Below, piece after piece: positions 3,293 to 54,708 of a DNA stretch of 56,755 nucleotides (positions are counted from its first letter, which is position 1; the number at the start of each line of letters is the position of its first letter). The position numbers and the translations under genes are program-made. The notes under the pieces were generated by a model, which worked only from the letters and a program-made list of their open reading frames with translations, did no database searches and was not told the origin of the DNA. Source of the DNA: Candidatus Schekmanbacteria bacterium (lineage in GTDB: Bacteria; SZUA-182); assembly GCA_016235675.1 (NCBI GenBank), contig JACRJN010000032.1, positions 1-56,755 of the forward strand. The letters run 5' to 3'.

Positions 3293-3378
3293 GATGTTTC
3301 GGCGTGTCCTCACGCCGAAACTCTCAAGGGGTAACGTTGCCCCTTTACGGTTTCGGTGTGAGGACACACCGAAACATC
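3293..3378. repeat. Palindrome, family E copy 1, uninterrupted
   Basis: Perfectly symmetrical arms GATGTTTCGGCGTGTCC and its reverse complement variant GGACACACCGAAACATC enclose AAGGGGTAACGTTGCCCC. It serves as the empty-site reference for the interrupted copy at 35434-35667. Half copies occur at 17308-17336, 46526-46570 and 54921-54951. Confidence 0.8.
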
Positions 3379-14004: not shown

Positions 14005-14553
14005 ACCACGAAGGACACGAAGAGCACGAAGAATAAGAGTGTGACCTTTAAATGATGTTGACTCTTTATGGATTCCAGGGTCTTATATCAAGAATTGTTG
14101 GCTCCAGGCTTTGGGTTTTGGGCTAATTCAAATACCCTCCAAAGGAGGGGTCTCTTTCTGAGCCCAAAGCCCCTCAAGCGCTAACTTAGCAATTTCCCCT
14201 CCCCCTTGAGGGGGGAGGAGGGATAGGGTGGGGGTGATTCAAGGACTTTAGTGACGAGGTATGAGGACTAAAGTTAAATTCTATTCTTCAACTCATCCTT
14301 GAGCCCCTCGTCACTCAGTCCTGCAATCACCCCCATCCCAACCTTCCCCCCTCAAGGGGGAAGGAGCTTATTTTGCACCTCTGACTTGCTTAAGTTAGCG
14401 CCTATGGCCCAGAGCCTAAAGCCTAATTAAGAATAACGGTTAATATTTTCTAAGTCCCTTACATCATTACAAGGTCACACCCAAGAATAAAGATAAAAGT
14501 GAAAAACAAACCCTCACTCTTTATCCTTCTTTTTTCTTCGTGCTCTTCGTGGT
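14005..14553. repeat. Five-level nested palindrome in a 610-base gene-free region (family F copy 2 outermost)
   Basis: 13968-14584 holds no gene. From outside inward: (1) ACCACGAAGGACACGAAG at 14005 against CTTCGTGCTCTTCGTGGT ending 14553; (2) GTGTGACCTTTAAATGATG near 14039 against ATCATTACAAGGTCACAC near 14480; (3) CAGGCTTTGGGTTTTGGGCT near 14112 against GGCCCAGAGCCTAAAGCC near 14405-14422; (4) GCGCTAACTTAGC plus TCCCCTCCCCCTTGAGGGGG against CCCCCTCAAGGGGGAAGG and TTAAGTTAGCGCC; (5) GACTTTAGTGACGAGG against CCTCGTCACT near 14308. Each layer sits inside the loop of the previous one, as expected from successive insertions. Confidence 0.75.
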
Positions 14554-29550: not shown

Positions 29551-29611
29551 ATGTAGCGCAGGGCTTTAGCCCTGCCTCCCCAGGTAGCAGACCTAAAGGT
29601 CTGCGCTACAT
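29551..29611. repeat. Palindrome, family D copy 2
   Basis: ATGTAGCGCAGGGCTTTAGC faces CCTAAAGGTCTGCGCTACAT around a short centre. It interrupts the spacing between the two DJ-1/PfpI genes of one cluster. Confidence 0.8.
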
Positions 29612-34999: not shown

Positions 35000-35428
35000 A
35001 TGAAATTATTAACCGTTCCCGGCATATTGGAAAATCTCGGTGCGATCCGGCAATTTGTCAACCAAACAGGCCGTGAGGCAGGGCTTTCCGGGCAAGCCTT
35101 ATATGACCTGGTGTTGGCTGTCGATGAACTTGCTGCCAACACGGTTCTTTATGGTTACGAACAAAACCGGCAACCAGGCAATATTGTTGTGACTGCCAAG
35201 ACAAGCAAAACAGAGTTCACGGTTACGCTTGAAGATACCGCTCCGGCCTTTGATCCCGGTAAACATAACCTGCCCCAGGATGCGGATTTAATCCAACCGA
35301 TGGAGGAGCGCAACATCGGAGGGCTGGGTATTTATCTGGCCGTAAAGGGAGTCGACGGCTTTAAATATCAGCGGATTGACCAGAAAAATATAGTTAAGCT
35401 TTCCAAGAAATTACCGCCCGGTTCGTAG
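35000..35428 (+). CDS. RsbW-like serine kinase/anti-sigma factor
   Basis: A 142-residue GHKL ATPase. The N box VDELAANTVLYGY (Glu43, Asn47), the G1-like LEDTAPAFDP and the G2 GGLGIYLA (~107-114) are complete, so ATP binding and kinase activity are likely. RsbW proteins phosphorylate STAS antagonists and may bind a sigma factor. No sigma factor gene is present in the window, so the output is either a remote sigma factor or another target. It corresponds to slr1861. Confidence 0.9.
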   Translation: MKLLTVPGILENLGAIRQFVNQTGREAGLSGQALYDLVLAVDELAANTVLYGYEQNRQPGNIVVTAKTSKTEFTVTLEDTAPAFDPGKHNLPQDADLIQPMEERNIGGLGIYLAVKGVDGFKYQRIDQKNIVKLSKKLPPGS

Positions 35429-35433
35429 CTTTC

Positions 35434-35667
35434 GATGTTTCGGCGTGTCCTCACGCCGAAACTAACAAGGGGTAACGTTCAATGCTGTTGACTTAAGACG
35501 TAGCGCAGGGCTTTAGCCCTGCTTAAGACGCGGCAATTGACCCCTGTGGCCGTAGCAGACCTAAAGGTCTGCGCTACGTAAATATCAAAACAGAATTCCT
35601 TAAGTCAACAGCATTGGGGGTAACGTTCCCCTTTTACGGTTTCGGTGTGAGGACACACCGAAACATC
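35434..35667. repeat. Family E palindrome interrupted by a family D element with 12-base direct repeats
   Basis: Arms GATGTTTCGGCGTGTCC (35434) and GACACACCGAAACATC (to 35667) match the intact copy at 3293-3378. The centre is split by a 135-base insert (35481-35615) with perfect 17-base ends AATGCTGTTGACTTAAG/CTTAAGTCAACAGCATT. GGGGTAACGTTC occurs immediately left of the insert (35469-35480) and one base right of it (35617-35628). In the empty copy this stretch occurs once. Confidence 0.85.
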
Positions 35668-35695
35668 AATTTATATTAGGTTGGCAAAGGACACA

Positions 35696-37441
35696 ATGAG
35701 ACATAAACTTAAAATTCGCACATATATTTTATTTTTGTTAATCCTGGTCATTTTATCCATTAGTGTAACCTATTCAGTTCATTCCTATCTTATTTTAAAA
35801 GACGAGACAATGAAGCTGATAGATGCAGAACTGAGCGAGGGGGCGTTAAAGGCGGTGGATTTAGTGCCGGATGAATATTATCTTAAAATAACCGGCAAGG
35901 ATTCTATCTCCAGGGACGAATATTTTTCGGTGGTGGAGAAATTGACAAAATACGCTAAATTACACGGCTATGCTTATATTTACACCTTTATGATAAAAGA
36001 AGGAAAGATAATTTACCTGGCCAACAGCGTAACAGAGGCGGATTTGAAAAACAACGCCTGGTATTATTATTACTCCGAGGAGCCTCTTCCCCCGGATTTA
36101 CAGGAAAAGTACCATAAGCTGGCACTACAAAAAGAACAGCCGCTGATTAATTTTGAAACGGCTGGTAATAATATTAAAAACCCTTCCCCGGCGAATAAAA
36201 CCAAAAAGCTTTTGGGGAACATTAACCAGTTTGTTTTTTGGGCAAAAGTAAAACGGCTTGTAACCGATCAGGTAAATCTTGTCGATAATTATAAAACCAA
36301 AGATGGTGATTTCCGCTCCGCAACAATCCCTTTTAAGGATTCGCAAGGCCGCCAGTATTTTGCCGGAGCGGATTATTATCTCCATGATATTAAAGCATCT
36401 TTACGCAAATTAATCATAAATTGCATTATAATAGGATTGATAATTCTTATTCCCTTTGTGTATGTTACCATAGTTATCGCGGGGAAAATCGCCAATCCCG
36501 TCATGCAATTGGTGGAATGCGCCGACTCCTTGCAGAAAAACGCCTTTTCATTCCCGGAGAAAACCAAACAGCGCTTAAAAATGATATGCGACGGGAGACA
36601 AAAAGAAATCGGCGATCTGGCCTGTACTTTTATGGCAATGGACAAAACCTTAAATCAATACAAAGAAGAGCTAAAGCAGGAAGTCGCAGCGCAAGAGCGC
36701 ATTTCAAGCGAACTGGAAATTTCCCGTAACATCCAAATGGGTTTTCTGCACAAAAATTTCCCGGCCTTCCCGCAAAAAAAAGAGTTCGACTTATACTCGA
36801 GAGTCCTTCCCGCCAAACAAATTGGAGGCGACCTTTATGATTTTCAATTAATTGACGATGACCATCTTTTTCTCTGCGTAGGGGATGTTTCGGACAAAAG
36901 CGTACCGGCGGCGCTTTTCATGTCGGTCACTCAAACATTAATCAGGTCGGCGCTTAAAAACATTTCCGATCCGGCGCAAGTTTTACAAAGCGTTAATGCC
37001 AACTTATACAAAAACAACGACAATCTGATGTTTGTTACCGTATTTTGTGCGCTGCTTTCCCTGAAAACCGGCGAGTTGATATTTTCCAATGCCGGTCACA
37101 ACCCGCCGGTTCTAATCCCCAAAAGCAGCGATCCCAAATTGGTAGATTTGCCCAAAGGATTGGTATTGGGTGTCGATCCGGATGCACAATTTCAAAATAA
37201 AAGCCTTCGACTGAATATCGGCGACGGGCTTTTAGTTTATACCGACGGCGTTACCGAGGCTAAAGATGTCAGGCGGCAATTATATTCCGAGAGCCGGTTA
37301 CTGGAAATCAGCCACACCTTTAATCAAAAAACCCCACAGCAAATAGTGGAATCCCTAATCGATTCCGTAAATCAGTTTGCGCATGGAACCACTCAGTTTG
37401 ATGATATTACCGTCCTGTCGTTAACATATTCCGGGACATAG
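35696..37441 (+). CDS. SpoIIE/PP2C-type phosphatase with membrane-bound sensor
   Basis: A 581-residue protein likely resetting the STAS proteins. A membrane helix at residues ~4-25, an extracytoplasmic sensor of ~210 residues (LKAVDLVPDEYYLKITGKD...), a second helix (~240-263), a HAMP-like segment and coiled coil (~265-335), then the PP2C SpoIIE domain: PAKQIGGDLYDFQLI, LCVGDVSDKSVPAALFM and VYTDGVTEAKD with the metal-binding Asp residues. ATG 35696 has AAAGGA six bases upstream; a TTG at 35681 is possible. It corresponds to IcfG (slr1860), which lacks this exact sensor layout as far as I recall. The input signal is unknown. Confidence 0.9.
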   Translation: MRHKLKIRTYILFLLILVILSISVTYSVHSYLILKDETMKLIDAELSEGALKAVDLVPDEYYLKITGKDSISRDEYFSVVEKLTKYAKLHGYAYIYTFMIKEGKIIYLANSVTEADLKNNAWYYYYSEEPLPPDLQEKYHKLALQKEQPLINFETAGNNIKNPSPANKTKKLLGNINQFVFWAKVKRLVTDQVNLVDNYKTKDGDFRSATIPFKDSQGRQYFAGADYYLHDIKASLRKLIINCIIIGLIILIPFVYVTIVIAGKIANPVMQLVECADSLQKNAFSFPEKTKQRLKMICDGRQKEIGDLACTFMAMDKTLNQYKEELKQEVAAQERISSELEISRNIQMGFLHKNFPAFPQKKEFDLYSRVLPAKQIGGDLYDFQLIDDDHLFLCVGDVSDKSVPAALFMSVTQTLIRSALKNISDPAQVLQSVNANLYKNNDNLMFVTVFCALLSLKTGELIFSNAGHNPPVLIPKSSDPKLVDLPKGLVLGVDPDAQFQNKSLRLNIGDGLLVYTDGVTEAKDVRRQLYSESRLLEISHTFNQKTPQQIVESLIDSVNQFAHGTTQFDDITVLSLTYSGT

Positions 37442-38799: not shown

Positions 38800-38999
38800 G
38801 GGCGGGGGCTTCCTGCCGATGCTGTTGACTTAAGACGCAGCGCAGGGCTTTAGCCCCAATACTGTTCACTTAACGTATTCACTTAACGTAGTGCAGACCT
38901 TCAGGTCTGCTCCGGAGTGCACGGTTAAACCACCCCATAAGCAGGGATAGAAGCCCTGCGCTACGTCTTAAGTAAAGTGATGGATTCTTTGTTGAGAAC

Positions 39000-53698: not shown

Positions 53699-53893
53699 TA
53701 GCTCCAGCCCTTCAGGGCTGAATTTCCAGGGCTAAAGCCCTGGGACTACGACTACTGGGACTACGACAGCATAAGCGCTAACTTAAGGCATTTATATGTA
53801 GCGCAGACCTTTAGGTCTGCCCCGGCTATAGGGTCGAACGTTACGTTCGGGGCAGGGCTAAAGCCCTGCGCTACGTTTAAGTTAGCACTTATG
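53699..53893. repeat. Palindrome cluster with three-level nest (family D copy 5)
   Basis: 53699-53749 is GTAGCTCCAGCCCTTCAGGG against AGGGCTAAAGCCCTGGGACTAC. Then CATAAGCGCTAACTTA (53770) against TAAGTTAGCACTTATG (to 53893) encloses GTAGCGCAGACC...CTGCGCTACG, which encloses CGAACGTTACGTTCG. The block separates truA from the T-component gene. Confidence 0.75.
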
Positions 53894-53895
53894 GA

Positions 53896-54708
53896 CTACG
53901 GCAGGGGGGTATTCCCCAAAATATAGGCTAAAAACGCTATCCCCAACACTGTCATCAGCGAAAGATAATCCATAAATTGCAACTTGCCGGGATAAAGACT
54001 GGTACGGGAAACATCGCTCCGATAGCGGCGGATTTCCATAGAGAGAGCCAGATTATCGGCGCGGCGAAAGGCGGAAAAAATCAAGGGCACGGTCAGGGCT
54101 GATAAGGATTTAATCCGCTGCACCAGTCCGCCTTGAGAAAAACTAATGCCGCGGGCGATTTGGGCTTTACGCAGCCGATCCGCTTCCTGCCATAATAGCG
54201 GCAGAAAATGCAGGCTGAACATGATCATCAACGCTAAATCCTGAACCGGAAAATTGAATCGTTTCAGAGGTGAAAGCAATTTCCCCAGGCCGTCCACCAA
54301 ACGTCCCGGAGAAGTGGTCAAGGTCAACAGGCTGGAAGCGGCCAGAAAAATCAACAGGCGCAGGCTGATATAAGCCCCGTTGTGCAACCCTTCATAGGTA
54401 ATGCCGCGCTCATGCCAGACTAAATAAGGGATAAAATAGCCGGGGGTAAAAAGCAGATGAAAGAAAAAGGTAAAGATCAGGAACCACTTTAATTTCAGCA
54501 GCCAGCGGGCAATCAGCCGATATGGCAAGCGGCTTGCGCCGATAGCTGCGGCAAGAAGCGGCAGGATCAAAAAAACAGCCGTTTCCCGGTAAAAGGCAAT
54601 CCCGACCAGTATTAACAGGCAAATAAGCTTGATTCTTGCATCCAGCAGATACAGGCCGTGATCGCCGTCACGGTATTGACCGAAAATGGGTTGTTGCGGA
54701 GAAAACAT
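53896..54708 (-). CDS. CbiQ/EcfT-type ECF transporter T component
   Basis: A 270-residue membrane protein with five to six helices that couples ATPases to an S component. GDHGLYLLDARIKLICLLIL at the start, then the two coupling motifs: KAQIARGIS (first Ala-Arg-Gly) and ALSMEIRRYR, where the second motif has Arg instead of Gly. That change is unusual and may weaken the coupling helix. It lies upstream of truA like ecfT in Firmicutes, but faces the CbiM operon across truA, so it might serve CbiM or be a general EcfT. No ATPase gene is next to it. Confidence 0.87.
   Translation of the reverse strand: MFSPQQPIFGQYRDGDHGLYLLDARIKLICLLILVGIAFYRETAVFLILPLLAAAIGASRLPYRLIARWLLKLKWFLIFTFFFHLLFTPGYFIPYLVWHERGITYEGLHNGAYISLRLLIFLAASSLLTLTTSPGRLVDGLGKLLSPLKRFNFPVQDLALMIMFSLHFLPLLWQEADRLRKAQIARGISFSQGGLVQRIKSLSALTVPLIFSAFRRADNLALSMEIRRYRSDVSRTSLYPGKLQFMDYLSLMTVLGIAFLAYILGNTPLP

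Follow-up and report, generated by a model that had tools for sequence, protein, structure and literature searches.

The described systems closest to the locus analysed here are the ISs of subgroup IS4 of the IS4 family, whose end signature is -AATR--------WTW---- and whose target duplications measure 10-13 bp (PMC2266710 Table 1). Type II MITEs of prokaryotes, such as Chunjie, Nezha and QMITE, are short, non-coding, present in many copies, flanked by a duplication and similar to ISs only in their terminal inverted repeats (TIRs), and in Coxiella the GTAG palindrome of QMITE2, a dispersed repeat, is the landing site targeted by the mobile element IS1111 (PMC10969869). GTAG-tagged REPs and REP doublets (PMC3733652) are a third point of comparison. 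The element studied here, which we call D, shares properties with all of these. Its signature, duplication range and target specificity are those of subgroup IS4, and ISs of 1502-1623 bp with DDE/YREK transposases have identical 18-bp ends, but D carries no transposase gene and no partner was found in the host assembly. It has the listed properties of the type II MITEs, whereas in this one genome the same ends (type D1) enclose palindromic interiors of at least six kinds, some of them common to two other end families. Like a REP doublet, its interior is an inverted pair of palindromes starting with GTAG (cargo C), although these palindromes are enclosed by DDE-type ends and a search for a RAYT gene flanked by them gave none. 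As in Coxiella the landing site is a dispersed palindrome, here one called E that appears to have received an IS4-type MITE.

The window, that is, the whole stretch of DNA analysed (56,755 nucleotides), is contig 170 of the 190 contigs in the assembly of Candidatus Schekmanbacteria bacterium (2.98 Mb, 89.65% complete). The interrupted E palindrome and its uninterrupted counterpart are composed as follows.

35434..35479, + strand: E palindrome, interrupted copy: left half with the left target copy
35469..35479, + strand: left copy of the 11-bp target-site duplication, GGGGTAACGTT
35480..35616, + strand: D1-type MITE, 137 bp, non-coding, self-folding (z -10.9)
35480..35497, + strand: left TIR, CAATGCTGTTGACTTAAG, 18 bp, with the IS4-subgroup signature -AATR--------WTW
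35500..35522, + strand: interior palindrome GTAGCGCAGGGCTTTAGCCCTGC, GTAG-REP-like, first unit of cargo C
35555..35577, - strand: interior palindrome GTAGCGCAGACCTTTAGGTCTGC, second unit of cargo C, inverted
35599..35616, - strand: right TIR, perfect complement of the left
35617..35627, + strand: right copy of the 11-bp target-site duplication, GGGGTAACGTT
35628..35667, + strand: E palindrome, interrupted copy: remainder of the right half
3293..3378, + strand: D-free (empty-site) E, 86-bp near-perfect palindrome, core GGGGTAACGTTGCCCC

Direct reading of the sequence sets the limits of D at 35480 and 35616, with TIRs that are perfect over 18 of 18 bp, the terminal C...G included. The initial annotation had described an element of 135 bases with perfect 17-base ends, flanked by a 12-base direct repeat whose right copy lay one base off; the perfect ends and the repeat stand, the sizes are corrected to 137, 18 and 11 bp, and within the new limits both copies of the repeat directly abut D. 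The twelfth base, C, belongs on the left to D, as its first base, and on the right to the target, as the next base; that the two match is coincidental. GGGGTAACGTT occurs once in the E at 3293-3378 and twice around D. When the flanks are joined with a single 11-mer they give 86 bp that align without gaps, at 95.3% identity, to the D-free E at 3293-3378, a paralogous empty site in an order represented by this genome alone, and equally (ungapped, 95.3%) to a further sequence, L211. We take the duplication to be 11 bp because 10 or 12 bases would give joined products of 87 or 85 bp and force a gap against E. Chance is excluded as the source of the repeat, a given pair of 11-mers having a probability of 2.4e-7. 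The whole strand of D folds on itself, no open reading frame of at least 60 aa is listed across it, and an Rfam search of the window gave no match. The interrupted E falls within a 252-bp intergenic gap, with a HATPase_c_2 gene of anti-sigma type (35000-35428) on one side and a gene for a SpoIIE phosphatase (35681-37441) on the other, and no coding sequence is disrupted there. With this clean pair of filled and empty sites the unit of a high-copy MITE from an uncultured lineage is established, together with its ends and its 11-bp duplication.

Analysis of the host genome extended these results to the whole family. The genome has 50 matches to D, of which 13 are near-full copies (92-100% identity); the D1 end occurs 97 times with at most one mismatch (reversed-pattern control, 0), and D1 together with its sister end D2 (CAATACYGTTCACTTAAG) 192 times with at most two mismatches. 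Ends were paired within fetched loci that had been chosen by their ends, which yielded 32 D1 pairs and 17 D2 pairs. The D1 flanks agreed at 9 or more of 11 positions in 20 of the 32 pairs, 8 of them exactly, and did so only at length 11 (null from mismatched flank pairs = 1.5%; binomial about 7e-29), other lengths staying near the null level. Where both ends were perfect, 16 of 21 pairs reached this agreement and 5 of 21 had no good repeat. These duplications span many unrelated flanks, most of which are not E, and the earlier proposals that the repeat is a target-site duplication and that D elements move as units hold genome-wide. Copies of D lacking a direct repeat, or D-free E copies carrying two GGGGTAACGTT stretches, had been named as evidence that would count against these proposals. 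The former exist, 12 of the 32 D1 pairs showing no good duplication; this minority is compatible with decay or recombination, and its members are probably best read as decayed or recombined copies. The latter were sought in 27 parsed D-free E copies, none of which has two GGGGTAACGTT on one strand, and the empty form is therefore the common one.

The D1 duplications favour G at positions 1-4, T at position 5, A at position 7 and C throughout the final four (strands pooled), examples being GGGGTTTCCCC, GGGGAAACCCC and GGGGTAACGTT; those of D2 always have a central TA. The palindromic core of E, AAGGGGTAACGTTACCCCTT, has the form of a D1 target. In another copy of E (L085) the mirror position of this core is occupied by a second D1 element, whose interior differs from that of D. 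About 40 further copies of this high-copy 86-bp palindrome, which forms a strong hairpin, are free of D in the genome. The E copies themselves (that at 3293-3378 and the about 40 others) show no visible target duplication, and at one locus (C53:8465-8579) an E palindrome lies inside or beside a D1 end, the reverse of the nesting seen in the window.

Both D1 and D2 ends agree with the subgroup-IS4 signature at all seven conserved positions (PMC2266710), and their duplications, of 11 and 10 bp respectively, fall within the range of 10-13 bp for that subgroup. The ends of D thus fit subgroup IS4, a putative assignment made from end signature and duplication length. We considered whether they might belong to the IS231 subgroup (Bacillus type) instead. 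The target preference of D1, an 11-bp duplication bounded by runs of G and of C, resembles the rule that IS231A reportedly follows. Against this, IS231 ends begin with CAT and those of D with CAA, D fits the IS4-subgroup signature, and the IS231 signature (CAT, -AA--TAA-) is found in the ends of a third family, D3 (CATARGCGCTAACTTAAG), and not in D, so that membership of D in the IS231 subgroup is unlikely.

An origin of the interrupted site by IS4-type transposition, D having inserted into E with an 11-bp target duplication, is in our view very probable. A DDE transposase supplied in trans would bind the 18-bp ends of D, excise the element and paste it into a target of the approximate form GGGG-T-N-A-CCCC; the two target strands would be cut 11 bases apart, and repair of the gaps would leave the 11-bp duplication. 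The centre of E (GGGGTAACGTT[A/G]CCCC) is such a target. We infer that an IS4-type transposase moved D here by this cut-and-paste chemistry.

The 18-mer of the D end, which a text search of the literature did not find, was scanned across 84,980 species genomes and recovered in at least 100 stretches (Methylobacter, Desulfonema, Desulfamplus, Syntrophobacteraceae, Aminicenantes, Planctomycetota and others). Among the matches listed were three full ISs with both ends identical to those of D.

L150 132-1633: IS with D ends, Desulfobacteraceae, 1502 bp
L198 5885-7507: IS with D ends, Planctomycetota, 1623 bp
L201 68-1687: IS with D ends, Verrucomicrobia, 1620 bp

Their proteins match NF033592 (IS4 family) with 172-181 bits against a cut-off of 115, and also PF01609; the transposases of L198 and L201 are 51% and 49% identical, respectively, to that of L150. 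All three have the YREK motif (Y319 R322 E326 K333 in L150); the DDE residues and the Y(2)R(3)E(6)K pattern of the subgroup are found in the partner ISs of other genomes and not in D itself, and by inspection their interiors are unrelated to that of D. A related transposase lies 6-185 bp from a perfect D end at 11 loci from several phyla among the matches listed. With identical ends surrounding IS4 transposases in three ISs elsewhere, D can be classed as a type II MITE that was very probably mobilized in trans; it is short and non-coding, with perfect TIRs and a fixed-length duplication, and shares its ends, and not its interior, with autonomous IS4-type ISs. These results tie orphan MITEs of several phyla to one IS4-type clade.

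The initial annotation had suggested searching the genome for a transposase with matching terminal repeats, which exists in the three ISs of other organisms and was not found in the host. Neither in the host assembly (89.65% complete) nor in eight relatives of its class was a transposase with D ends found, an autonomous partner in the same genome being usual for type II MITEs and not definitional. A profile of the partner transposases, which worked on the three donor genomes as positive control, gave no match over nine genomes of the phylum, and one relative (G007) has 189 copies of the D end yet no such transposase gene. The host genes matching PF01609 and NF033592 were rejected as partners, having inverted ends of the AGTGTCCGGTTA kind or no D ends, and so were single D ends near contig edges as broken autonomous ISs, their interiors being other palindromes and tblastn detecting no transposase. 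The partner of D has probably been lost, lies in the unassembled part of the genome or is very divergent. A further IS4-type IS, with ends TAATACTGCTTACTTAAG akin to D2, occurs in a Bathymodiolus endosymbiont (L135 2161-3597), where the 8-kb stretch holds several copies of the IS end after near-identical GGGTCARACTC flanks.

The interior of D offers another candidate for the mover, a RAYT/IS200-type tyrosine transposase acting on a GTAG-tagged REP doublet. Tyrosine transposases are not known to leave a duplication of the kind described here. The interior units of D do begin with GTAG as REPs do (PMC3733652) and the host genome has four Y1 transposase genes, but none of the four is flanked by interior motifs of D, D1 ends show the same behaviour even where their interiors have nothing in common, and the duplications follow the ends and not the interior, all of which makes such a mover very improbable. 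Least probable of all is that D is a static stem-loop and the 11-bp repeat around it a product of slippage or recombination in the middle of the E palindrome: E and D are both strong hairpins, which promote rearrangement, and the clean repeat is missing in the 12 of 32 D1 copies, but this reading is already contradicted because the duplication, fixed at 11 bp, occurs at many unrelated sites that are mostly not E, and IS4 transposases are flanked by the same ends.

Transposition by IS4-type ends leaves the variety of their contents to be considered, and the indication of interchangeable cargo is the least ordinary part of our results, D itself belonging to a known kind of element. The sister families obey length rules of their own, D2 flanks agreeing only at length 10 (at least 8 of 10 positions in 12 of 17 pairs; null 5.2%) and D3 flanks only at length 11 (14 of 20 pairs; null 1.8%). 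Ends of all three families, D1, D2 and D3, enclose the cargo C doublet, which is also present bare (window position 29553), a CATTGCGAG palindrome is found inside D1 and D2 ends, and a CTCTCCC palindrome inside D2 and D3 ends. Other D1 interiors are unrelated palindromes, among them 11 of the CATTGCGAG type and 6 of the GTCATCCCCGAA type, as counted in loci selected by their ends. In other phyla D1 ends, identical letter for letter, enclose yet other and mostly self-complementary interiors that differ by host. The interiors shared under D1, D2 and D3 ends point to an exchange of shell and cargo, which may have proceeded by recombination between palindromes or by insertion beside palindromes followed by loss of ends. 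We tentatively suggest, as a possibility somewhat short of even, that pairs of IS4-type ends form exchangeable shells in which the palindromic repeats of the host itself are enclosed. If true, this would be a general route for dispersed palindromes to become mobile by gaining transposon ends, and whether REP-like palindromes are mobile through being wrapped in IS ends has become a testable question.

Three other places in the window carry related elements. A D3-type MITE with ends CATAAGCGCTAACTTAAG at 53770-53893 has the same GTAG-REP doublet inside as D and a duplication matching at 10 of 11 positions (53759-53769 and 53894-53904), and a 234-bp D3-type element at 14173-14406 has a CCCCCTTGAGGGGG interior and a duplication matching at 9 of 11. 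At 38818-38973 a D2-type left end interrupts a D1 left end at GCTTTAGCCC and cargo C comes after it, an arrangement that looks like a D1 element invaded by a D2 element, with the right side decayed.
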